A stretch of 64,000 bases of DNA, from NCBI GenBank assembly GCA_950295325.1, contig OX485804.1:54126001-54190000 (forward strand), in the 5' to 3' direction. Shown here one piece after another: positions 14,441 through 46,096 of the stretch. Position 1 is the first letter of the stretch. Each line of letters opens with the position of its first letter. The position numbers and the translations under genes were made by a program. The stretch is from Polytrichum commune (Eukaryota > Streptophyta > Polytrichopsida > Polytrichales > Polytrichaceae). The notes under the pieces were generated by a model, which was not told where the DNA came from, did not search any database, and saw nothing but the letters and a program-made list of their open reading frames with translations.

Positions 14441-14929
14441 CACTCGCGTACCTTACCTTATATCGAGTGGAGAAGGAGCGGTGAATGCTCACTAGGTGAT
14501 AGTTGGTGGTGAGCCACTTGTTTATCTCCTTGGTCACAAGACAAGCTTTCGAAAGCATCACCATGGGCACGCCATCGCAATTGGTAGTGAGCCTCCAACG
14601 CATTCTTTTGACGATCCGGGTTGCTTGCGAAGCACTCTTGTGGAAGCCTTTGGAAGCATGCAAAGTTGAGGACCGTTCTCTAGACGACATAGTAGAAGCT
14701 GCGGCAAAACCTTGAATGCATGTAGCAGTGTGGTGGTGGAGCCTCTATTCGTCGTCCCTCTCCCCGCCGCCGGTCTTAATTGCCGCACGAGAGTGGGCCA
14801 AGTGGCCTCGGTAACACCGTCGGATGCTCACGCCAGCTTTCAACTTTCCTTTTGCCGCACCGCTATTGTTGGATGCTTCATAGGGCCACGTCATCGCACT
14901 GTGACTGTGCCATGCGCTCTCTCTGCTAC

Positions 14930-16445
14930 CTTTGGACTTCAATCAGTCACTTAAACTCTCTCGCCCTCCTTGTCCTTTTCTCTTCTTCTTACACTGCCAA
15001 CATCTGAGCCCAAGGCAATCGTCCTTTGTCGACAATACACCCTCACCTCCGTAACCTCACTCCCTCTCTTATATCCCAAAAACCCTGGGAAATTGCAATG
15101 TGATTGTGCCATGCTCTCTATGCTACCTTTGGACTTCAATCAGTCACTTAAACTCTCTCGCCCTCCTTGTCCTTTTCTCTTCTTCTTACATTGCCAACAT
15201 ATGAGCCCTAGGCAATCGTCCTTTGTCGATGATACACCCTCACCTCCGTAACGTTACTTCCTCTCTTATATCCCGAAACCCTTGGAAATTGCAATGTGAT
15301 TGTGCCATGCTCTCTATGCTACCTTTGGACTTCAATCAGTCACTTAAACTCTCTCGCCCTCCTTGTCCTTTTCTCTTCTTCTTACATTGCCAACATATGA
15401 GCCCTAGGCAATTGTCCTTTGTCGATGATACACCCTCACCTCCGTAACGTTACTTCCTCTCTTATATCCCGAAACCCTTGGAAATTGCAATGTGATTGTG
15501 CCATGCTCTCTATGCTACCTTTGGACTTCAATCAGTCACTTAAACTCTCTCGCCCTCCTTGTCCTTTTCTCTTCTTCTTACACTGCCAACATATGAGCCC
15601 TAGGCAATCGTCCTTTGTCGACGATACACCCTCACCTCCGTAACCTCACTCCCTCTCTTATATCCCGAAACCCTCGGAAATTGCAATGTGATTGTGCCAT
15701 GCTCTGCTACCTTTGGACTTCAATCAATCACTTAAACTCTCTCGCCCTCCTTGTCCTTTTCTCTTCTTCTTATACTACCAACATATGAGTTCTAGGCAAT
15801 TGTCCTTCGTCGACGTACACCCTCATGTCCGTAACGTCACTCCCTCTCTTATATCCTGAAACCCTAGGAAATCGCAATGTGACTGTGCCATGCTCTCTCT
15901 GCTACCTTTGGACTTCAATCAGTCACTTAAACTCTCTCGCCCTCATTGTCCTTTTCTTTTCTTCTTACAATGCCAACATATGAGCCCTAGACAATTGTCC
16001 TTTGTCAACAATACACCTTCACCTCCGTAATGTCACTCCATTTCTTATATCCCGAAACCCTAGGAAATCGCAATGTGACTAAGCCATGCTCTCTGCTACC
16101 TTTGGACTTCAATTAGTCACTTAAACTCTCTCTCTTTGTCCTTTTCTATTCTTCTTACAGTGCCAACATGTGAGCCCTAGGCAATCGTCCTTTACCGATT
16201 ATATGCCCTAGCCTCTGTAACGTCACTCCCTCTCTAATATCCCGAAACCCTAGGAAATCTCAATGTGACTGTGCCATGCTCTCTGGTACCTTTGGACTTC
16301 AATCACTCACTTGAACTCTCTCTCCTTTTCCTTTTCTCTTCTTCTTACATTGCCAACATATGAGCCCTAGGCAATCATCCTTTGTCAATGATACACCCTC
16401 ACCTCCATAACGTCACTCCCTCTCTCATATCTTGAAACCCTAGGT
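14930..16445 (+). repeat. Tandem repeat array, ~190-197 bp unit, about 8 copies
   Basis: The phrase GGACTTCAATCAGTCACTTA recurs with starts near 14935, 15132, 15328, 15524, 15716, 15911, 16105 and 16295 (spacing about 190-197 bp). Each unit also holds TTGCCAACATATGAGCCC and TATATCCCGAAACCC. Copies 2-4 are almost identical, while the right-hand copies carry more substitutions and small deletions. The 74-codon frames in the first copies simply repeat with the array and are probably not genes. Confidence 0.93.
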
Positions 16446-17011
16446 AATGGATGTGCTCAATTTAAATCTCCCTCCTTGTTGTCACATTTCCCTCTCATCT
16501 ATCACATATTTTGACATTAAATAATTCATCAAAGAATCTAAATCACACGTTCGCACGCATCATGCTATCATCATTATTATATTGTCATTATCGTAATGCC
16601 AACTTTGTGTTATTCCATAATGTCACATGCTACATTGATTCTCTATTATCATGCATCCATGTTAACATTATAAACCTGAATATCATGTGTATTTTGATTG
16701 TCACGTGCATGATTTTAGGGAGGTTAGAGTGCAAAATGATGCAAGTTTTGTTTGTTGTGGTAGATTCATAGATTTATTAGTGACATATGACAATTTTTTC
16801 AATGACGCATGTCAATTTGCCTATGACTCACATGCTTGTATTTTTTTTTTAAATTACAAGTTGAGTTAAATTATAATTACCATAAAGTTATGAAAACACA
16901 GCCCCCACAACATATACCTCAATACCAAACACTCCATAGTTTCTTCCAATCAGCCAATCATGTTGGGACTTCCTAAGCTCTTTGGAGATAGAGAATCATC
17001 GCATACAAACA
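16446..17011. other. AT-rich intergenic DNA
   Basis: No gene or clear element seen between the tandem array and the repeat that begins near 17012. Confidence 0.4.
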
Positions 17012-29949: not shown

Positions 29950-29953
29950 AAGG

Positions 29954-30391
29954 TGTCACGTGAGGTGACATCGGGGGCTAAGTTACATCAATTTAGGAGT
30001 AAATGGACTCCATTAGGAGTCCATGTGTGTTGGGATGAGTAACGGACTCCATTGGGAGTCCTAGTTAGTTGTTCATCCACTCCATGGATGAACTCCACAT
30101 AGGATTAGGGTTGTATGGAGAGGAAGGCCTCTTGACTTGCCATTGTTGTCAAGTCAAGTCTTGTGAGTGTGTTTTGAGAGAGAGAGAGCTTGTTGTTGCT
30201 TTCTCATGGCTATGGTGTCGTAGATTATGAGTAAAGCCTTTGCATTCTTTCTCCACCACTTGCACTCTTGGATTCTCCCTTCGTGGAGTGAGAGATAGCT
30301 TGACTCTTGTGTGTGAATTTTAGAGTTTTTTAAGCTTTGTAAGGAGACATTTTAGTTTCTTAAGCTTGGAGAGAGAAACCCTCATACTTGA
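29954..30391 (+). repeat. 5' LTR (lacks the last ~103 bp of the 3' LTR)
   Basis: Aligned over 438 bp with 39215-39652 with about six differences. The first ~205 bases hold five short perfect hairpins: TGTCAC/GTGACA (29954-29970), GGACTCC/GGAGTCC twice (30005-30022, 30044-30061), TTCATCCA/TGGATGAA (30072-30092) and CTTGACTTG/CAAGTCAAG (30131-30158). After the shared CTTGA at 30387-30391 the sequence departs from the 3' LTR. Confidence 0.9.
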
Positions 30392-31539
30392 CAACACTGG
30401 CTCAAATTTTTCATTTTTGGTTGTATTTCTGAGCTAGAATGGCCCAGTTATGAGAGCAAATGAGTGATACAAGTGTTTGAAAGCTTAGTTTGTCATTTCT
30501 TGCAACCCTCAAGAAGATTTTGAGAGAAATCTTCCCATTTTTCTTTTGTTGTCTCTTTGTGTTTTCTTCAATTGTTGATGCTTGAATCTTGAGATTCCAT
30601 TTGGTCTCAAGATTCTCAAGTCATATTTTTCTTGCTTGAAAATTGTGGAAGCAAAGTTTAATTTTTTTAAACACAAACACAAACCAAATTCAAAATCCGA
30701 TTTAGTTTTAATTTTTTTTTGAGCTCCGGACGGATCCGGAGCTCACCGGACCCTCTTGGAGCTCCGGTTCTGGACACTGCGGCGAAAACCCGGGCCGGGG
30801 AGCTGAGGAGCGGGCCAGGCGGGCGGGCGTTTGCCGGGCCCCACCGGCGGGCGGACGCCAGCCAAGCCTGGTTGGCTTAGGCTCTACTTAAGGTAAGCTT
30901 AAGCTTACCTTTGTTTTTTTTTAAATTTTTTAAATTTAAAATTTGTTTGTTTAAATTTTCTGTTATTTTTTGTTGAAAAATAAATAAAATAAAACCCATT
31001 AATTTTTAATTTTTTAATAGTATTTTTACTTTTTATTTTCACATTTTTACTTTCCCCTTTCATACTTGGCATTTGACTCTCACAACTTTGAGGTTCAAAT
31101 TTGGGGGCATACTAGCTCCGATTGGAGTGAAATTTGAGCCTATCTTGTGTGAAATTTGCCAAGGAATCCAATGGTGTAATTGGATTGTTGATTGGAATTC
31201 AAAATCATTGCTGAAATTATTAATTTCAACGCTGATTTTTGTTTTTGGGAGCAAATTAACTCCGAATGGAGTGAAATTTGAGCCTAATTTGTGTGAAATC
31301 TTCCTAGGAGTCCATTGGTGCACTTAGTTTGTTGATTGGAGTCCATAATCACCTTGGAAATGAGCCTTTTCAACGCTGATTTTTCATTTTAATTACCAAT
31401 CTCAAACCTTTGCACAATTTTGGAATTCTGGGGGTATAAACACTTGGCATTTGGCAAGGGATTGCCATTTAGATAGCCCGCAACAGGTGCAGGTTGCCAT
31501 TACCTTGTAGATAGTTGCAGGTACTCAAGTGATTATTTT
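30392..31539 (+). promoter_or_regulatory. Retrotransposon untranslated leader
   Basis: About 1.15 kb between the 5' LTR and the Gag start. It has a GC-rich island at 30721-30870, opening with a perfect palindrome GAGCTCCGGA/TCCGGAGCTC (30721-30744). It also has two diverged direct repeats (about 31095-31230 and 31245-31390), each containing GGAGTGAAATTTGAGCCTA, TTGTGTGAAAT and CAACGCTGATTTTT. A leader of this type would hold the primer-binding and packaging signals, but none can be pinned down by eye. Confidence 0.6.
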
Positions 31540-34500
31540 ATGGTGCAAACTAGGAGCCGATATTATCGATCTCCATCACAAGATTACTTGGAGGACGTGC
31601 ATACCACAAATCTTGAGCCAGAGGTAGATACCAACGAGGCTTTTGAGCCTATTTCGGCATTGGACACTACTAGTAGGCTTCGGATTTGGAGTGTCGGCAC
31701 GTTCGACGAAATGGAGGACGATCGCCACAATTCAGTGCGTGATCGGTTTTCAGGTCGAGTTGGGGACATTTCCTTGCCCGATTGGAAACTCCGGTTTCGT
31801 ACCTGGATTAAGGAGAAACGCCAAAGGTCTTCCAATTTCAATGATTGGTATGCCTTTGAACTTCTGCCTCAACATTTGGAGTATGAGGCACTCCAAACTT
31901 ATGAACGCTGGACAGAGGGTCATCAGCGACAACTTCGGGAGGTGGAGCAGTATTGGGAGGCTCGGGTTGAGCTCATTTCAGCCCTTAAGGATGGGGCGGT
32001 TGCTACCTTAGCTCCACCCACCTTAAAGGAGGAGGAATCGCCGGCGGAGTCTAAGGACACGGAACTGGCACTTGGGCCAATGGTGGCTAGCAGTAGCACG
32101 GCAACCCTTTCACGGGTGGCACGTGCTACACAGGCAGCATTGACGGCTGTTGGTCCACCACATCCGTTTAATCCCCTTACTGAATTTGTCGCACATTTGG
32201 AAGTGGAGTATGGTGGGTTTCGACGAGACCAGATGCAGCGCATCCAGGATTTCCGCCGAGAGAAGGATGATACTCCACGGACCATGTATACGCGATTCGC
32301 GCGATTTGCTGTGGAGTCGGGAGGTGTTTTTGCTGAGAGTCAGCTTGTTAAAATTTTTTTGTCTAAGATTGACAAGCGGCTACTTGAGTTGGCATCACCT
32401 CGGATTATCCTCGACTACGAGGGCCGAGCTACGCTTGCACAAGCGTTTGCCGTGGTTGAGAGATATGATCGGACTCTTTGCCAACATGATGCCACGGATA
32501 TAGTATCTTGGATGACAGAGAGTCCGAAACCAAGAAGAATTGTCACAGCTACTAGTAGTTTAGCTGAGACTCAACCCGTCAAGGAGCAAAAGATTTTGCA
32601 TTGTTGGGGTTGTGGAGAAGCTGGTCATTCGAAGAATGATCCCAATTGTCCTAAGAAGAAGAAAACTCAGCCTTTGGGAAAATTAAAACAAAAGATGGAA
32701 CCAGTAAAGGCAGGGGACCATTCTAAGAAGAGACAATTGAAATGTAACCATTGTGGTGGCACTAATCACGATGTGGATCATTGTTTCCAACTTCATCCTG
32801 AGATGCGGCCTGCCAGTTATGTCACTGGAAAGTCTCCAAGGGAGCAGAGTCTTGAGGCTAAGGTGGCAAAGCTTGAGCAAAAGCTCAAATCTTCTGCATC
32901 TTTTGCTCAAATTTCTGAGCCGCATGTGGATGGTGGCACCTCGGGTTCGGACATGTATATGTTTGGAGCAGCAGGAGAGGTGGTGGCGGCGGCTTCTACT
33001 CGCTCACAAACATTGGCAGATGCGGTGGCTTCCACGAGTGGTGGTAGCAATGAGGTGCTACATCCTCGCCATGCCGGACCAGCTGATCAAATTGGTCAAG
33101 CACGTTTACCTCTTTCATTTGGATTGGTAGACACCACTGTTGTTGGGGCTAAAAACCCTGTACCTTTGAGAGATGGGGATTCCATCTCGAAGGATGTTAC
33201 GCAGGCATTGGCATATAAAATTCTCCATATGCCAATTTTCTCGGGTTCGGAGTTTTTGGCTTCGGATTTCAAACCTGCTGCAGTTTTTCATTTAGCTGGG
33301 AGAATGTTAGAAGGTAAGGCGGATTTGCCATCCTTTCAAGTATCCCAAGCTGTGGTTGACGTACCTGTGGCTGAGGAGGTGGAGGACTTAGCCAATTTGC
33401 GAGCGAGTCTTGCGGATGCGGCGATCCTTGCTTTTGGTAAGCAAACTGATATTCCTCCAGCATCAATTTCAACAGTGGATACGTCATTTTCGAATTATGC
33501 GTCGGGAGCGGCATATCTTGCAGATATTTCTGCAAGGCCTGCACGCGAACAACATAATTTGCAACCTGGAGTTGTACGGCTGATGAACGACAAATCTTTG
33601 TTTGTCGTTTCACGCACGGATATGCCTACTATCCGTGCTACACCACTGAGAGTTATGATGGATTCCGGTGCTCAACCGGTTATGATTGGCAAAGGACTTG
33701 CTGACAGTCTTGGATTGACGCCAGCAAGCTTGGATCCTTGTCCATTCACTATTGTGACTTCAGTAAGGGGCATTGAATGTGCAACAGGTTACACCAAGGC
33801 ACCTCTACGTTTGATTTTTCATGTGGGGGCAGGGCCTACTTACACTCATTTGTCAATGAAGTGTGTTGTTACTAATGCTACCAACTATGATATACTTGTT
33901 GGTCAGCAAGCTCTTTACCCACTTGGCTTTGGTTTGGATAATTGGACGGAAGAGGCATGGATTAGACCGGGATGGTCCACTGGAGATGGCAGGAAGGTAT
34001 TTATTCCCGTTACATTTGTAGCCACTGCTATGACTATGGTTGCGGAGGCAATGTTTGGTTACAACGGTTCAGTTGCAGATTTGCCTTGTGCTTCAGTTTT
34101 ATTGGAGGAAACAATGGACTACACTTGTAATGCGGCAGAACAACAATTTTTACCATCTTTTCAAATTCCTGCTCGACATTTCAAGGATCCACCTCCACCA
34201 TGGCGAACTCCTAAGGAGTTATCCGACCATTGTCAACACATTGTAGCGGATTTGGAGCTTGGAGAGGCACCTCCAACTTCATCCTCATTTTCTTTTGCTC
34301 AACCCATTCGTTGGCAACCATCACCTGAAGGTATTGTCCTTGTGGAGATCTTTGGAGGCATTGGCACAAGTTTGGCGGCAGTGTTGGAAGCTGGAATTAC
34401 AGTTTGGCGATATATTCATGTGGACAATGGGTATGCAGCCAACAGAGCCGTCCGACACCACATCCAACAATTGTTGTTGAGATACCCCGCACAATTGTCA

Positions 34501-35364
34501 GCCTCTGCCATTCATGGATGTTGTGGTCAGCTTCCTCAAGATGTCACTATGATTAGTGATGAGGATTTGAGAAGGTTGGGCCACGTGGATTTGATTATTG
34601 CAGGATGGCCTTGTCAAGGCCATTCGCGGGCAAAAACTGGCCAGGGATTGGATGATCCTAGGTCTAGTTTGTTTGCGGATTTGATGCGATTGACGCAATG
34701 GTGGTTTACCTACCAATCAACTCCGCCAGGGTACATTTTCAAAAATGTACCATTATTGGGTGATACCCGGCACAAAGTGGTGAAGGATGGTGAGTACATT
34801 AACCAAATTCTGGGTACTCCAACATTTCTGGATGCTGCATCTTTGGGGTCCTTTGCTCATCGGCCTCGTTGGTTTTGGACCAACTTGGTATCACCTCGGG
34901 TGCTTTCAGGGGGGATTGCCCGCATTCCCCGCCTTAGGGATCGCAAGGTGGATGACATTTTAGATTATCATCGTGTTTCCTTGGCAGTTACCAAGGATGA
35001 CACCTTGCCATTTGCATTAATTAACAAGGTGGGAATTCCGAGAGGTGCACTACCTACTTTTGTGACATATCCACAGTCTTTTGCATTTCGATCTCGTGGA
35101 CCTGACATGGTTTGGGATTCAAAATCCCAAACTTATGAGGAGCCTACGGCAGATGAGCGGGAACGCGCCATGAGTTTTCTTACAGGTACCACGGCTGCTC
35201 ACGGGCTTCAGGAAGGTCAGAGACGTTTCCTATTGGGGCAAGCTATGGATCTTAATAGCATTGTGTGGATAATTGGAATTTGTCTTGCTGCTCAACAACG
35301 TATGGATGACCAATTGCTTACTCTGAGGACAGAGAACAATGGTCAGGGGGCAATGGAGCCGTAA
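31540..35364 (+). CDS. Gag - zinc knuckles - protease - DNMT3-like methyltransferase polyprotein part (1274 aa)
   Basis: Longest open frame in the window, starting at an ATG after the leader. Residues about 212-330 are a Ty3-type Gag core (FRREKDDTPRTMYTRFARFA). Two zinc knuckles follow: C355-x2-C-x4-H-x6-C and the canonical C402-x2-C-x4-H-x4-C. A Ser/Ala-rich linker leads to the protease active site MMDSGAQPVMIG (Asp708-Ser-Gly-Ala). Residues about 925-1255 are a C5-cytosine methyltransferase, placed before the reverse transcriptase, which is not a normal gypsy arrangement. The frame ends at TAA 35362-35364, but translation stays open in the same frame beyond it. That stop is probably a mutation, though a programmed Gag/Pol boundary cannot be excluded. 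The transcript presumably starts in the 5' LTR. Confidence 0.93.
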   Translation: MVQTRSRYYRSPSQDYLEDVHTTNLEPEVDTNEAFEPISALDTTSRLRIWSVGTFDEMEDDRHNSVRDRFSGRVGDISLPDWKLRFRTWIKEKRQRSSNFNDWYAFELLPQHLEYEALQTYERWTEGHQRQLREVEQYWEARVELISALKDGAVATLAPPTLKEEESPAESKDTELALGPMVASSSTATLSRVARATQAALTAVGPPHPFNPLTEFVAHLEVEYGGFRRDQMQRIQDFRREKDDTPRTMYTRFARFAVESGGVFAESQLVKIFLSKIDKRLLELASPRIILDYEGRATLAQAFAVVERYDRTLCQHDATDIVSWMTESPKPRRIVTATSSLAETQPVKEQKILHCWGCGEAGHSKNDPNCPKKKKTQPLGKLKQKMEPVKAGDHSKKRQLKCNHCGGTNHDVDHCFQLHPEMRPASYVTGKSPREQSLEAKVAKLEQKLKSSASFAQISEPHVDGGTSGSDMYMFGAAGEVVAAASTRSQTLADAVASTSGGSNEVLHPRHAGPADQIGQARLPLSFGLVDTTVVGAKNPVPLRDGDSISKDVTQALAYKILHMPIFSGSEFLASDFKPAAVFHLAGRMLEGKADLPSFQVSQAVVDVPVAEEVEDLANLRASLADAAILAFGKQTDIPPASISTVDTSFSNYASGAAYLADISARPAREQHNLQPGVVRLMNDKSLFVVSRTDMPTIRATPLRVMMDSGAQPVMIGKGLADSLGLTPASLDPCPFTIVTSVRGIECATGYTKAPLRLIFHVGAGPTYTHLSMKCVVTNATNYDILVGQQALYPLGFGLDNWTEEAWIRPGWSTGDGRKVFIPVTFVATAMTMVAEAMFGYNGSVADLPCASVLLEETMDYTCNAAEQQFLPSFQIPARHFKDPPPPWRTPKELSDHCQHIVADLELGEAPPTSSSFSFAQPIRWQPSPEGIVLVEIFGGIGTSLAAVLEAGITVWRYIHVDNGYAANRAVRHHIQQLLLRYPAQLSASAIHGCCGQLPQDVTMISDEDLRRLGHVDLIIAGWPCQGHSRAKTGQGLDDPRSSLFADLMRLTQWWFTYQSTPPGYIFKNVPLLGDTRHKVVKDGEYINQILGTPTFLDAASLGSFAHRPRWFWTNLVSPRVLSGGIARIPRLRDRKVDDILDYHRVSLAVTKDDTLPFALINKVGIPRGALPTFVTYPQSFAFRSRGPDMVWDSKSQTYEEPTADERERAMSFLTGTTAAHGLQEGQRRFLLGQAMDLNSIVWIIGICLAAQQRMDDQLLTLRTENNGQGAMEP
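34312..35304 (+). other. C5-cytosine DNA methyltransferase domain (DNMT3-like) within the polyprotein
   Basis: Motifs appear in the linear order I, IV, VI, VIII, X, unlike the rearranged plant DRM enzymes. Motif I is LVEIFGGIGTS (SAM binding, about residue 935) and motif II-like RYIHVDN follows. Motif IV is GWPCQGHS with catalytic Cys1025; compare GSPCNDLS in DNMT3. Motif VI is FKNVPLLG: the family ENV has become KNV at Lys1068 (codon AAA, one G-to-A step from GAA). Motif VIII is AHRPRWFWTNL (His1107-Arg-Pro-Arg), very close to AHRARYFWGNL of DNMT3. The C-terminal RRFLLGQAMDLNSIVWIIG fits DNMT3 RQRLLGRSW-V. The domain is structurally complete, but this copy has probably lost activity. Retroelement-borne methyltransferases are known from dinoflagellates and charophyte algae. 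Confidence 0.9.
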
Positions 35365-35649
35365 TCCAAGGATCACATTGAGGTCAATGACACCGAGGGA
35401 TTATTTCCTTTGAAACTTCATGTTGCGGAAGAGCTTCGAGCCCAACGTGTTTTTTCGGCTTTGGCCCAAGAGTTTGGGAAGTTGGAGGCTCATAAAATGT
35501 TTCCACTTCTATTTCTTGGTGATACTTCATATGTGGGTAGCTATTTAGCTACACAAACTGATTGTAGTGGAGATGATACACATTTGGATTCAAGTGCAGA
35601 TGATGGGGGCAAAGGTGTTGCCCTCTTCACGGACTAGCAATCACAGGCT

Positions 35650-36684
35650 GTGCTGGTACCAAGTGGCAATCCTTCTATGAAGAAGGAAACCACAGAGTTT
35701 GACGATTGGCCAATTGAAGTGGGGCCAAAGCTCACTGGTGCCGAAGCACGAAAGGTACGGGCATTTATTCGCTCTTACCGTAATTGTTTTGCCTTTAGTC
35801 TTCATGATCTTGAAGGATATAAAGATAAACCTGTTCGTATTCAACTCGAGGACGACCACCCTATTTTCAGACGGCCGTACAGACTTAGTACCTCTGAAAT
35901 GTTGGGTGTTCAAACTCGATGTCAAGAGTTATTGGCAGCGGAATTGATTGAACTCTCCAATGGAAAGTACGCTTGTGCCACGGTTATGCCGTCAAAGAAG
36001 GAAATCTTTGGCAACTGGACGGAAAAACGGATGTGTGGTGATTATCGTCCAGTCAACCGCAAGACCAAGTCGGATCGATATCCAATGCCGATGCCGGAGG
36101 AGTTGTTTGATGCACTGGGATTTTCTAGAATCTTCAGCACTCTGGATTTGAGGTCTGGTTATCACCAATTACCTTTGTTGTTGGGTGATCGGGTGAAGAC
36201 CGTATTTTGGGGAATTGATAAAGATGGCAAGGATCAACTTTATCATTGGAAATTTCTGCCATTTGGTCTCAAGAATGCACCAGCTGAATTTCAGCGGGTG
36301 ATGGACCAATTATTGGCTGGTTTGCCGTTTGCTAGATGTTACATTGATGATGTTATCATCTTTAGTAATAGTCCACAGGATCATGTGAGACATTTGCAAG
36401 CGGTATTTGAACGACTTCAACGGTGGGGACTCCGTTTACATCATGGAAAATATAAGTTTTTCCATGATCAATTGCCCTATTTAGGCCACATGATTGTTCC
36501 TGGCGGTCTTGGTGTGCAACATGCGAAGGTGGATGCTTTGCACAAAATTCCCGCACCTAGTGATGTACCACGGCTTCGTGCATTTCTAGGATTGGCAAAT
36601 TATTATAGGAGGTTTGTCAAAAACTTTAGTTTGATTGCCAAACCTCTTATCATTCTCACGGGGAAAGACCAACCATGGATTTAG
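35650..36684 (+). pseudogene. Reverse transcriptase segment
   Basis: Ty3/gypsy reverse transcriptase. Visible blocks are MCGDYRPVNRKTKSDRYPMP, STLDLRSGYHQL, WKFLPFGLKNAPAEFQRVMD, the catalytic YIDDV (36340-36354) with its two Asp, YLGHMI and LRAFLGLANYYRRFVKNFS of the connection to RNase H. All catalytic residues that can be checked are present. It ends at the TAG at 36682, in the conserved F-x-W region just after the thumb. The upstream stop at 35635 separates it from the methyltransferase part. Confidence 0.93.
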
Positions 36685-37173
36685 AGTCGGGAACAACAAC
36701 ATGCATTTGATATATTGAAGCAGAGGCTTGGTTCAGCGCTAGTGCTTCGACGCCCGGATGTGTCTAGAGCTTTTCAATTGCACACGGATTGGAGTGCAGT
36801 GGGATTGGGAGCGGTATTGACACAGAAAGATGAAGAGGGAAAAGAATATGTGGTAGCTTATGCATCTAGAAGCAATAATAGTGCTGAATCTAATTATTCT
36901 TCTTATGAAGGCGAGGCTTTGGCGGCCGTTTGGGCCATTGCACATTTTCGACCTTATTTGTATGGGCAAAAGTTTACTTTGGTGATTGATCATCAGCCTT
37001 TAAAATGGCTTATGGAATCAGATAAACTCACCGGGAAACTTGCTAGGTGGGCATTGTTACTTCAGGAATATGATTTTGAAGTTGTTCACCGAGCAGGAAT
37101 TGCCAACTTGGATGCAGACGGATTGTCTCGTAATCCAAGTCCTTCAGTTGAGGATTTAACTGGAGCCAGGTGA
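36685..37173 (+). pseudogene. RNase H segment
   Basis: RT-associated RNase H. LHTDWSAVGLGAVLTQ carries the first Asp, YEGEALAAVWAIAHFRPYL the Glu, VIDHQPLKWLM the next Asp, and NLDADGLSRNP the last acidic residue. Order and spacing are normal for Ty3/gypsy, and the active site appears intact. Bounded by stops at 36682 and 37171. Confidence 0.92.
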
Positions 37174-37329
37174 CATGGAGATTATGATCGTGAGGCAGTG
37201 CCGGGTTGGCATGCTGCCACATATCTCACAATGATGTCGGGATTGGCTGCTGAGATCCTTGTAGAAGAACAAGATGAGGAGGTTGATAAATCTCTCGTTG
37301 TTAGTGATGTGTGGGAAGACTAGGCGGTC

Positions 37330-37665
37330 TTGCACAAACTTCAACAAGGGATATTTCCTCTTGGACTATCTGCTATGGAGCGAGATAGAGTTAGTCACCG
37401 GATAACAAGGTTTCGTTGGGCAAACAACTTGTTATTTCGTGTGTGGCCGAACGGAACGAGGCGCATCGTTCCAAGGCCAGATCAAAGAGCTTCTTTGGTG
37501 CGGCAAGTGCACGAGGAGCTTGGATATTTTGGAGTGCGAAGGAAGCACTCTATGTTGCGCAACCAATATTGGTAGACTGGTATGTATCAACAGGTTGCCA
37601 CTTATGTTTCTCGGTGTGAAGTATGTGACCGGGTCAGGTCAAGTTTTAATACTTTGTCACCTTAA
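37330..37665 (+). pseudogene. Integrase N-terminal zinc-binding domain, broken
   Basis: Fits the HHCC domain: LVRQVHEELGYFGVRRKHS, YW, a TAG stop at 37573, then GMYQQVATYVSRCEVCDRV. The second His of H-x4-H is Tyr here (codon TAT, one C-to-T step from His CAT), so zinc binding is probably lost. A further TAA lies at 37663. Short open linkers (37174-37320) connect it to RNase H. Confidence 0.85.
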
Positions 37666-37683
37666 CTTCAGCCTTTACCTATT

Positions 37684-38781
37684 ATGGGCTTGGGATATCG
37701 TTGGTCTTTGGATTTTGCCGGACCGCTTACTATCACTCCACGTGGTTCCAAGTATGTGCTTGTGATGGTGGAGCATTTTAGTAAGTGGATTGAACTCGTG
37801 GCTCTTCCCCAAAATTCCTCAGAGTTGGCGGCTATGGCATTTCTTGATCGAGTTTTGGCACGGTTTGGAGCACCTGCAGAGGTGTTGACGGATCAAGGGA
37901 GAGAATTTCTTGGATCTTTCGAGGCTTTGTGTACCAAGGCTTTGATTGATCATCGTACAACTTCCAGAGATCACCATGAGGCAGATGGTTTAGCGGAACG
38001 AGTTGTTCAGACGGTTAAGCGCGGACTGCGGAAGTATGGATTGCTTCATGGCAACCATCGCGATTGGGACTTGATGTTATCATGGATAGCAATGGGTTAT
38101 CGTTTCAGCAGGCAAACATCTTTGGCATCCTATAGTCCTTACCAACTCTTGTATGGACGGGAACCAATTTTACCTAGCTCGGTGCGAAAAAAATTGGCTC
38201 CCGTGGTAAACTTGGATGATCTAGATGTTTGGGCTCAATGTCTTCATGACCGAGCAACGTTCTTCCAAAAGGCCATGCCTATGGCTATGGAGAACTTAAA
38301 TATTGCTCAACATCGTGATACATTACGGTATGCCCGGATCCGCAGTGGAGCTTATCGACCTCAGGTTCGTAGATTTTCCAAGGGGGATTATGTTTACTTG
38401 CAACGGGAGGCGCCTACGACATTGGATGTCAAGGCTGGGCGCACGATTTTGCGAGTAAAAGATGTCTTGCCAAGTGGTATATTATTGCTTGAAGGCAAGG
38501 ATGGACGGGAATGTCGTGAGCATTCAAAGAATTGTGCTCCATGTCACCTTCCCATCGACGGCTCTGTGCATCCCGAGTTGGCGGTTGTACCACAGGGTCT
38601 GCCTTGTTATGTTTGTGGAGAGAAGAAAAGAGCTACAACAATGTTATTGTGCGACCAATGTCAACGTGGATGGCACATGGCATGTTTGACACCTCCCCTT
38701 TTTACTCTTCCTTCTGGTAATTGGGTTTGTCCTCGTTGTCGGAAAACCTCTCATTCCGTGGCCGTTAATGGTCATGATTGA
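37684..38781 (+). pseudogene. Integrase catalytic core and C-terminal PHD finger
   Basis: The core shows the three acidic residues: LDFAGP (first Asp), LTDQGREFLG (second Asp) and HHEADGLAERVVQTVK (Glu), with 34 residues between the second Asp and the Glu instead of the usual 35. A PYQLLYGREP block and a GDYVYLQRE (GPY/F-like) module follow. The last ~50 residues are a PHD zinc finger, and the frame ends at TGA 38779-38781. This segment alone is open for 365 codons, so the integrase core itself is not disrupted by stops. Confidence 0.92.
38605..38745 (+). other. PHD finger at the integrase C-terminus
   Basis: Cys4-His-Cys3 pattern: CYVC, then LLCDQCQRGWHMACL, then WVCPRC, with the Trp two residues before the last pair that is typical of PHD fingers. 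PHD fingers usually read histone H3 tails. In chromoviruses a chromodomain occupies this position and steers integration, so a targeting role is likely by analogy. Confidence 0.9.
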
Positions 38782-39105
38782 GAATTTTGTGGATGTTTAC
38801 CACATGTTTTAGTGGTGAAGTTGTTATTTAGTTGGTTGGAAATTTTATGGAATTAAGACCACATTGAAAGAGTTATCCAAGAATTCAACATTAATTGTTG
38901 AAGGCGATTAAGGATGGGGCTCACATTGCACCCAGCCTACAGTTCTTGGATTACTTTATCAATCACGAGTTTAATTCCTTTGATTACTACTATCCAATTA
39001 AATATGTATAGATGTAGCAACAACTTCATCATGTTCAACAACTCTACCGATGAGTGTGTTTGTTCCTAGCCGATTGGAGGGGCTCCTTATCTGCTAGTGG
39101 GGGCA
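38782..39105 (+). promoter_or_regulatory. 3' untranslated part with polypurine tract
   Basis: Non-coding stretch between the PHD finger and the 3' repeat region. The purine run AGTGGGGG near 39096-39103 is the best polypurine tract candidate. Unexpectedly it is followed by the 107-bp block at 39106, not directly by TGTCACG. Confidence 0.5.
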
Positions 39106-39212
39106 CTTGAAGAGGTGGTTGTTTAGCATTTTAGTTTGCTATTTTATTTTGCTAATTGATGTTGACAACGACACTCGATCTGTTGTATTTAACGATCTTA
39201 GTTTACACGACA
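39106..39212 (+). repeat. Extra 107-bp copy of the LTR end
   Basis: From CTTGAAGAGGTGGTTG to TTTACACGACA it matches 39648-39754 with one difference (A versus G). It is followed by GC and then the LTR start TGTCACG, giving a GACA-GC-TGTC junction like two LTR ends joined. Confidence 0.9.
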
Positions 39213-39214
39213 GC

Positions 39215-39754
39215 TGTCACGTGAGGTGACATCGGGGGCTAAGTTACGTCAATTTAGGAGTAAATGGACTCCATTAGGAGTCCATGTGTGTTGGGATGAG
39301 TAACGGACTCCATTGGGAGTCCTAGTTAGTTGTTCATCCACTCCATGGATGAACTCCACATAGGATTGGGGTTGTATGGAGAGGAAGGCCTCTTGACTTG
39401 CCATTGTTGTCAAGTTAAGTCTTGTGAGTGTGTTTTGAGAGAGAGAGAGCTTGTTGTTGCTTTCTCATGGCTATGGTGTAGTAGATTATGAGTAAAGCCT
39501 TTGCATTCTTTCTCCACCACTTGCACTCTTGGATTCTCCCTTCGTGGAGTGAGAGATAGCTTGACTCTTGTGTGTGAATTTTAGAGTTTCTTAAGCTTTG
39601 TAAGGAGACATTTTAGTTTCTTAAGCTTGGAGAGAGAAACCCTCATTCTTGAAGAGGTGGTTGTTTAGCATTTTAGTTTGCTATTTTATTTTGCTAATTG
39701 ATGTTGACAACGACACTCGATCTGTTGTGTTTAACGATCTTAGTTTACACGACA
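39215..39754 (+). repeat. 3' LTR (540 bp)
   Basis: TGTCACG...CACGACA, the most likely full-length LTR. Its first 438 bp match the 5' LTR with about six differences; its last 107 bp match 39106-39212. AAGG follows at once, equal to the four bases before the 5' LTR. Confidence 0.85.
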
Positions 39755-39758
39755 AAGG

Positions 39759-44172: not shown

Positions 44173-46096
44173 TCAGATCTGATCAAGAACAGCCGCCATC
44201 CTTTGAAGCTCGGGGGACATCGAGGCGACCGGCCCTTCCGAAGGATAGTACATGTCTTGACCCCCCTGGTGCTGGATCTGCCATGTCATGGGAGTTTGGG
44301 GGACTGGATGATGAGTGCTGCGAGAGTTCATCATGAGTGCCTGATCGGCCAACATCGACACTTTGACTGGATGATGCAGCTCATTCTCAGGGGCTTGGTG
44401 GTGGACTTGAGCTCCTCCTCTTGTTGATGCTTCCTGAGAGGATACTAGATTGCACCATTTCATGACAGTGAGATCACCTCCAGACAGCTGATGATCATGT
44501 TGGTGGCCTGATGAGAGTTGGGCAGTGCTGGTATTACTGCAGGGTTGATGATCACTAGAAGTACCAGCTGATATCATGTCTATTGTGCTGGAAGATCTGA
44601 CCATTTGTTCATCAGCATGGTTACTAGAGTTTGCACTGGGTTTCTCCCCATTAAACCCTGCCCAGTGCAAGCTACTCTCATTAAACTGCAGCTGATTGCT
44701 GCCTGCTGTGTGACTGATGTTGTCAGTGCTGTTGTTGCTGGTGCTGCTGCTAGCCCTAGTGCTGGTGTCATCCCATGAGACGTGATGATTATACGGTTGC
44801 CCGCGAATGCCACCCTGAAGTTGACTCATCATATGGCCATGAACATCATCAAGGTTTGGATCATGTAGAAATCCATGAGGAGCCCCTTTGTGGAAGTTAG
44901 CAGTGATGGAGCACAAGTCACCCCTAGTGTCCACCGATGATCCGAACCCTCCACTAGCTCCTCCTCCATGGAAGTGATGATGAGAGGTTGAAGAAGGTGG
45001 TGCAAAGGGACCCAGCCTCATCTCAATCTCAGGTAACTGATGGTGCTGATTCTCCAAATTAGCAGAGTGACATAACTGTTGCGCCTGATCATGGGACTGA
45101 TGCTGCAACATGATCTCTGGCAAAGCTGCAGTAGCTGGTTGGTGGCTTGGAGCTCCTGGAGGATGAGGGTGATGATGGTGAAGCTGGTGGCCACCAGATT
45201 GGTGGGAATTATGATGATCAGAGGAGGAAGCAGATGCGCCCTGCAGTAGCCAAAAGACAGGATTGAAAGCGGCGGGCACCATGGTGGCAGGCTGATGATC
45301 TGGAGGTTTAATGGCATTGCCAGCTGATGATCCATCATCATGTGGTCCATGACTAGCTGGGTGGTCATGAGGCTCAAATTGAGAAGTGCTATGAGAATAA
45401 CTAGTGGGGGAGAGGGAGGGTACCTTGGGGGGCTGCAGCTGATGCAACATCAACATCCCTGCGGACATCTGCTGATCCCCATGGCTACTCATGTTCCTGA
45501 GGCGCTCACGAAGATTAGAAGAATCTGTCGCTGAGAGCTGCTGATGAAAGGTGGAATTACAGCTCACTAGACTGGGGGTACTGTTGATTCTCCTGAAGTC
45601 CAGAAACTTTGATCCAGATCTATCCCGGAGGATATTAATATTGGTACCTCCTGCTCCTGCGCCTCCTGCTGCTGGATGGGAATTATTTCTGGTTGGATTG
45701 CACATCACATGATGATCCTCCATGCTATAGCAGCTGCTACTGCTGCCGGGTTGCTGCTGATGCAACACGCGAGGAGTACTAGACTGAGATTTGAGGAACT
45801 CATAATGAGTACCATTGCCGAACCTCGACATGAACCCTGCTGCAGGTGCTGCTGCTGTTTGGGAGTTAGCTGGGTGTATTAGAGTGTCGTCTTGAGGGTT
45901 AATGATACTGGAGGAGCTCTTCTCCTGGATATTATTCATGCCTGAGCTGTGGTGGTGATCTGCTGCAGTACTAAGGACCTTGTGGGTGTTTGGGTCGATG
46001 CCGATGCTTCGCAGTTTCTTCTTGATGCATGAATTCCAGAAGTTCTTGATTTCGTTGTCCGTGCGGCCAGGGAGTTGAGTAGCAATTTGTGACCAT
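44173..46096 (-). CDS. MYB exon 3: end of R3 and long C-terminal region
   Basis: The acceptor ACAG precedes ATGGTCACAA; the split Arg codon AG|A joins exon 2, then Trp89. It encodes the DNA-recognition part of R3 ([15 protein letters not shown]) and the whole tail up to the stop at 44173-44175. Low-complexity stretches include His runs ([11 protein letters not shown]) and Gly/Ala-rich and Ser-rich tracts typical of activation regions. [10 protein letters not shown] is a hydrophobic patch in an otherwise polar tail. Confidence 0.92.

Follow-up and report, generated by a model that had tools for sequence, protein, structure and literature searches.

Two described retrotransposons with a DNMT3-type cytosine methyltransferase (DNMT) come closest to the element reported here. 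One is KnitGypsy-Dnmt3, a gypsy element of K. nitens carrying DNMT3 and DIRS-like repeats, according to the portion available to us of its description (de Mendoza et al., 2018; PMC5890265). The other is SymbioDIRS-Dnmt3 of Symbiodinium, for which excerpts of the same description state that tested copies methylate CG in yeast (PMC5890265). A passage of a further paper, which cites the 2018 work, also mentions DNMT3 in retrotransposons of streptophytes and assigns these to Copia and DIRS (PMC12344493). Here we report on a stretch of 64,000 nucleotides from Polytrichum commune (assembly GCA_950295325.1, contig OX485804.1, positions 54,126,001 to 54,190,000), hereafter the window, in which a retroelement at 29954..39754 encodes a DNMT3-type domain between its protease and its reverse transcriptase (RT). 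All coordinates are window positions, and all features of the element lie on the plus strand. Our analysis points to a gypsy-like family that probably makes DNMT3 at the level of Gag, primes its own reverse transcription and integrates from a joined-end complementary DNA (cDNA) that would be cut inside the long terminal repeat (LTR).

The domain at 34312..35304 had been called a DNMT3-like cytosine methyltransferase in an earlier note made from the letters alone, and its profile, its fold and the unrearranged order of its motifs all bear this out. The profile search that the note had proposed returned significant DNMT matches with DNMT3A first at 89 bits, followed by DRM (at most 57), DNMT2 (at most 38) and HhaI (32). 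No DNMT1 or CMT chain was among the 54 matches at an E-value of 0.001, which does not exclude these families. In the structure comparison, the nearest fold was likewise DNMT3, families missing from its match list not being thereby excluded, and mammalian DNMT3A/3B were the top match in the PDB by profile and structure alike. The motifs follow the canonical order I-IV-VI-VIII-X; the DRM-type rearrangement, with VI-X before I-V, is absent from the element DNMT and present in the host DRM at locus L043. A domain scan of the element's first reading frame gave no match to an ADD or PWWP domain. The catalytic cysteine motif PCQ is kept in 18 of 19 loci, a tally confined to the plus strand, and the motif VI glutamate in 28 of 30 copies, the family thereby having both catalytic residues. 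The window copy departs from it at motif VI, where it carries lysine (34741..34743), as does L019; a single CpG to CpA change separates the glutamate codon from the lysine codon. Lysine as a family trait was rejected on the strength of those 28 copies.

The domain is a family-wide trait of a multicopy element with many dozens of copies. We searched the genome of 408 Mb in 64 contigs, of which C1-C7 measure 42-78 Mb each and C2 holds the window. A protein search with the DNMT domain scored 121 places among 578 candidates genome-wide, and a Pfam model search scored 123 among 353. The two share 45 places, and their union of 199, only part of which was inspected one by one, contains at least one host DRM. 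A DNMT match lies 0.5-2.9 kb upstream of RT in 118 of the 141 scored RT hits (2203 RT candidates), and all five hits fetched from the remaining 23 carry the domain, one of them truncated. Copies without the domain, which would have marked a private insertion, were therefore sought without success. The family also includes a second subfamily with about 63% amino-acid identity to the first (loci L044, L046, L048, L049, L052 and L053).

The fusion is likewise present outside P. commune. Of 127 related proteins in a first search, 120 were listed, most of them metagenomic and unnamed. A second search listed 60 and thereby added 37 to the first list, including P0154 from Chlamydomonas eustigma. Calypogeia, Sphagnum, Marchantia, Riccia and Closterium are named among the matches listed; K. 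nitens is not a name among the relatives listed in either search. The earlier note knew of no such methyltransferase in a land-plant gypsy element with this layout. This agrees with the literature searched, in which no description of DNMT3 in a land-plant retroelement was found, yet several bryophytes and green algae have database proteins with the fusion. DNMT precedes an integrase zinc domain in P0132, P0134, P0136 and P0154 and follows RNase H in P0137, while P0149 holds DNMT, integrase and a PHD finger together; DNMT therefore sits at two places in related elements. Motif IV reads WEC or FEC in five of these six proteins, and P0080, P0085 and P0091 have EHV in place of ENV at motif VI. P0003, which has 75% identity to the element DNMT, carries the label of a bacterial metagenome-assembled genome (Candidatus Obscuribacterales), a filing that probably reflects plant contamination.

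In a tree of 31 rows, the 26 retroelement enzymes group together in a single clade (100/98.9) that excludes human DNMT3A, host DNMT3, host DRM, HhaI and P0158. The retroelement enzymes together with DNMT3 and DRM are separated from HhaI and P0158 at 91/72, albeit on long branches. In the first tree of 42 rows, 14 of which, several short or near-duplicate, were omitted from the later one, P0158 had joined DNMT3A at 91/56, a grouping flagged as long branches meeting. The idea that the window copy alone captured its DNMT privately from the host DNMT3 can be practically dismissed, since DNMT-bearing copies are spread throughout the genome and both the multi-exon host DNMT3 and the host DRM fall outside the retroelement clade. 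Host DNMT3 as a recent source of the element DNMT is also unsupported by the 31-row tree.

In the copies read, the first frame encodes Gag, a zinc knuckle (CX2CX4HX4C; 32743..32784), a protease recognized by its DSGA motif (33661..33672) and by domain scan, and DNMT, and closes at a TAG (35635 in the window). The second frame, in the same phase, encodes RT (RVT_1; 36022..36495), RNase H (36757..37071), a DDE integrase core (rve; 37696..37968), all by domain scan, and a PHD finger (38605..38739) detected by domain scan and profile search. In the window copy, the first frame is interrupted and spans 31540..35364, ending in a TAA (35362-35364) that is not the family stop. In many of the 141 RT hits, the pol frame stays open for 1047-1048 codons. 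The Ty3/gypsy-like layout with DNMT between protease and RT, as the earlier note had described it, is confirmed by the domain order, but the single open frame that it saw running on through RT is not, because a UAG separates the two domains. This family stop, UAG-CAA-UCA at 35635..35643, lies in a readthrough-type context: TAG-CAA-YCA is found in 30 of 30 loci of the protein search read (29 TCA, 1 CCA), and subfamily 2 has TAG-CAA-TTA in all three loci with full context (L044, L048, L049), L046 being cut after CAA. CAR-YYA after UAG is the readthrough consensus of plant viruses, as given in the available parts of two papers (PMC2194720, PMC2754532). Most ribosomes would stop at the UAG and few would read through into Pol, so that DNMT would be made at the level of Gag and packaged. 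In the relatives P0111 and P0124, DNMT continues into RT without a stop.

The PHD finger stands 3' of the integrase in the window and in four of six fetched right pieces. Its nearest solved relatives include the fingers of CHD4, PHF12, lid/KDM5, KAT6A, PHF21A, ubi-d4 and ATXR5, and that of UHRF1 is also similar. Several PHD fingers of those relatives read unmodified H3. No description of PHD fingers in gypsy integrases was found in the literature searched, judged by title.

The ends of the element revealed an unusual arrangement of repeats. The window element starts with TGTCACG and ends with ACGACA between duplications of AAGG (29950..29953 and 39755..39758). Repeat A (432 bp) occurs on both sides, as A1 (29954..30385) and A2 (39215..39646), with 98.6% identity over 438 bp. 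Repeat B (107 bp) is confined to the right side, where it flanks A2 as B1 (39106..39212), which also ends in ACGACA, and B2 (39648..39754), the window copy having one extra T at 39647. B1 and A2 are joined by a GC dinucleotide (39213..39214) at the centre of the palindrome GACAGCTGTC. The integrated layout is A-coding-B-A-B, in full A-int-B-GC-A-B. Although the order of RT, RNase H and then DDE integrase is that of Ty3/gypsy elements (Metaviridae), the left end lacks B and the element does not have two full identical terminal LTRs, and we therefore call it gypsy-like. The same type of right end is found in L034, L038, L040 and L042 and in subfamily 2 (L052). The right ends of L032 and L036 show no B-A-B end, but at both loci a B-GC-A|B match lies some 10 kb further along, which suggests insertions inside those copies. 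Of the five copies whose two ends were read, four have exact four-base duplications (window, L037/38, L039/40, L053/52), and L041/42 has one mismatch. At L052/L053 (subfamily 2, C5:8.78-8.79 Mb), A1 and A2 are identical over 334 bp, as are B1 and B2 over 107 bp; judged by these repeats, it is a very recent insertion.

Both repeats have precise inner boundaries. A1 is directly followed by a primer binding site (30386..30396) complementary to a sequence within A1, ATTGTTGTCAAGT (30142..30154), the putative 5' end of the RNA and here termed the self-primer. The complement spans 11 bases in the window, 13 in the five other subfamily-1 left ends where it was read and 15 in L053, with two matched changes in self-primer and primer site between the subfamilies. 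When RNA was folded from the self-primer onwards, a start that we chose, the self-primer paired with the primer site (z -3.15 and -3.20), and in each of the two folds 1 of 200 shuffles did equally well. A transfer RNA primer was also considered; no standard primer site was seen by eye after A1, and the self-primer fits instead. A 144-bp tandem duplication (31083-31370) lies in the leader, which extends from primer site to Gag. At the other end, B starts directly after the purine-rich GTGGGGGCA or GGGGGGGCA, the former being the putative polypurine tract directly before B1 in the window (39097..39105).

These boundaries suggest how the layout might arise. The element RNA would prime its own reverse transcription through the complement of 11-15 bases between LTR and primer site. 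Because A ends at the primer site and B starts after the purine tract, reverse transcription should give LTRs of the form B-GC-A. The ends of this cDNA would then be joined (A|B), and the DDE integrase would cut on the side of the 5' LTR, at the palindrome where B, GC and A meet (B|GC|A). The GC would be lost, and the integrated element would read A-int-B-GC-A-B, bounded by TG..CA and by a target duplication of four bases. We infer this joined-end cDNA cut inside the LTR from the repeat layout, the duplications and the counts of two joint patterns in subfamily 1. The B-GC-A|B joint has 62 exact places, the window copy standing outside them owing to its extra T, whereas B-GC-A followed by the primer site, the product of conventional linear LTR integration or of the mirror cut, has none. 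The sensitivity of the zero count rests on the six left ends of that subfamily with the boundary of A and primer site read (window, L033, L035, L037, L039, L041), all of which fit this part of the pattern; a seventh, L031, shows no A end.

Alternatively, replication could be of the DIRS type, with the terminal copies completed on an internal B-A junction template, the A2|B2 joint inherited through RNA, and a linear product inserted by the DDE integrase without ligation of cDNA ends. This would account for the single type of product observed, and the A-coding-B-A-B layout is that of DIRS-type elements and of KnitGypsy-Dnmt3 (PMC5890265, portion available). However, in both subfamilies A ends exactly at the self-primer site and B begins exactly after the purine tract, boundaries that retrovirus-like reverse transcription requires and DIRS-type replication does not, and we regard the DIRS-type route as unlikely, albeit a serious competitor. 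DIRS elements have a tyrosine recombinase and no target duplication; the element differs from them in its rve domain and four-base duplications. The joined-end cDNA cut on one side remains our preferred explanation of the ends.

What the methyltransferase acts on is less certain. The earlier note suggested that the element could methylate its own or host DNA, an ability that the window copy does not seem to have, given its lysine at motif VI and several stops; its reading frame is interrupted at 35362, and pol contains five further breaks ahead of its end. In copies without stops in the respective stretch, the mean pairwise ratio of nonsynonymous to synonymous rates (dN/dS), which includes changes after insertion, is 0.44 in DNMT (24 of 30 copies), 0.46 in the protease region (19 copies), 0.91 in the linker (21 copies) and 0.26 in the RT region (20 copies). 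Between the subfamilies, dN is about 0.28 and dS saturated or above 2.4. Within the polyprotein, the domain might by now have only a structural or nucleic-acid-binding role, as its position next to protease and RT and the lysine in the window copy and L019 would allow. We consider the loss of enzyme function improbable, since glutamate is kept in 28 of 30 copies and PCQ in 18 of 19 plus-strand loci, and DNMT is as constrained as the protease region. It is just as improbable that host DNA or chromatin is the enzyme's main target, for instance at insertion sites to which it would be guided by a PHD finger resembling those of CHD4, KDM5, PHF21A, ATXR5 and UHRF1, because DNMT and PHD lie in different frames with the UAG between them and nothing in the data points to nuclear host methylation.

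We tentatively favour the element's own cDNA as the most likely substrate, methylated during or after reverse transcription, which is the weakest step of the model. Taking the parts together, an element with a DDE integrase might join its cDNA ends, integrate via a one-sided cut at a palindromic LTR site and make DNMT3 at the level of Gag, the cDNA arriving methylated, and would belong to a self-methylating lineage across green algae and bryophytes with DNMT at two places in the polyprotein; this combined picture is speculative, more so than the choice of substrate. Several observations weigh against our interpretation. The motif VI glutamate is lost in two of 30 copies, and two of six fetched subfamily-1 right ends do not show a B-A-B end or PHD finger. 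The mirror cut product is absent, though a circle with two identical junctions should yield both, leaving the one-sidedness unexplained. C-to-T differences between copies amount to 0.0215 in CG, 0.0183 in CHG and 0.0129 in CHH, a mild CG/CHG excess and weak evidence of methylated copies. The DNMT domain from K. nitens gave no methylation in yeast, a result called inconclusive by its authors in the section at hand (PMC5890265).

Elsewhere in the window, a tandem array of period 196 (8 copies, 90% matches) occupies 14896-16448, and a large host open reading frame of 588 aa lies at 44173-45939 on the minus strand. Among the 11 relatives listed for this frame, the only named one belongs to the moss Ceratodon purpureus, at 37% identity, and some relatives carry PF00249, which we take to be MYB-like.

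Methylation is the host's silencing tool, yet selection maintains a methyltransferase in many copies of this lineage and across several plant groups, a good case for how mobile DNA uses host epigenetic marks. The repeat layout could not be maintained by ordinary LTR integration and makes a precise prediction for the intermediate. With many copies in one host, at least one of them very young, the questions of methylation and integration are both testable.

Mammalian DNMT3A/3B, which are host genes with introns, share fold and motif order with the element DNMT at 24% identity. Tf1 and Tj1 of fission yeasts have ordinary LTRs and are not known to carry a DNMT. As in Tf1, the primer binding site of the element is complementary to the putative 5' region of the RNA within the LTR; self-priming from this part is described for Tf1 and Tj1 and would be shared by the element, and Tj1 likewise has a stop between gag and pol, according to the part of the source available (PMC4600332). 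For SM-Tcn1, neither self-priming nor tRNA priming was found, as stated in an excerpt of its report (PMC2864245). SymbioDIRS-Dnmt3 resembles the element in its split repeats and in encoding DNMT3 as part of a retrotransposon polyprotein, but it has a tyrosine recombinase where the element has a DDE integrase (PMC5890265, same portion). KnitGypsy-Dnmt3 is closer, sharing gypsy-type domains, an intronless and unrearranged DNMT3 in a divergent clade, DIRS-like repeats and purifying selection (PMC5890265). However, its DNMT is reported in the Pol open reading frame, whereas ours closes the Gag-protease frame before a leaky UAG, and the available text contains no mention of a PHD finger or self-primer, of duplicated target sites or of cutting within the LTR (PMC5890265). 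The leaky stop, the self-primer, the PHD finger and the proposed one-sided integration are the main additions of this family to the known DNMT3 retroelements.

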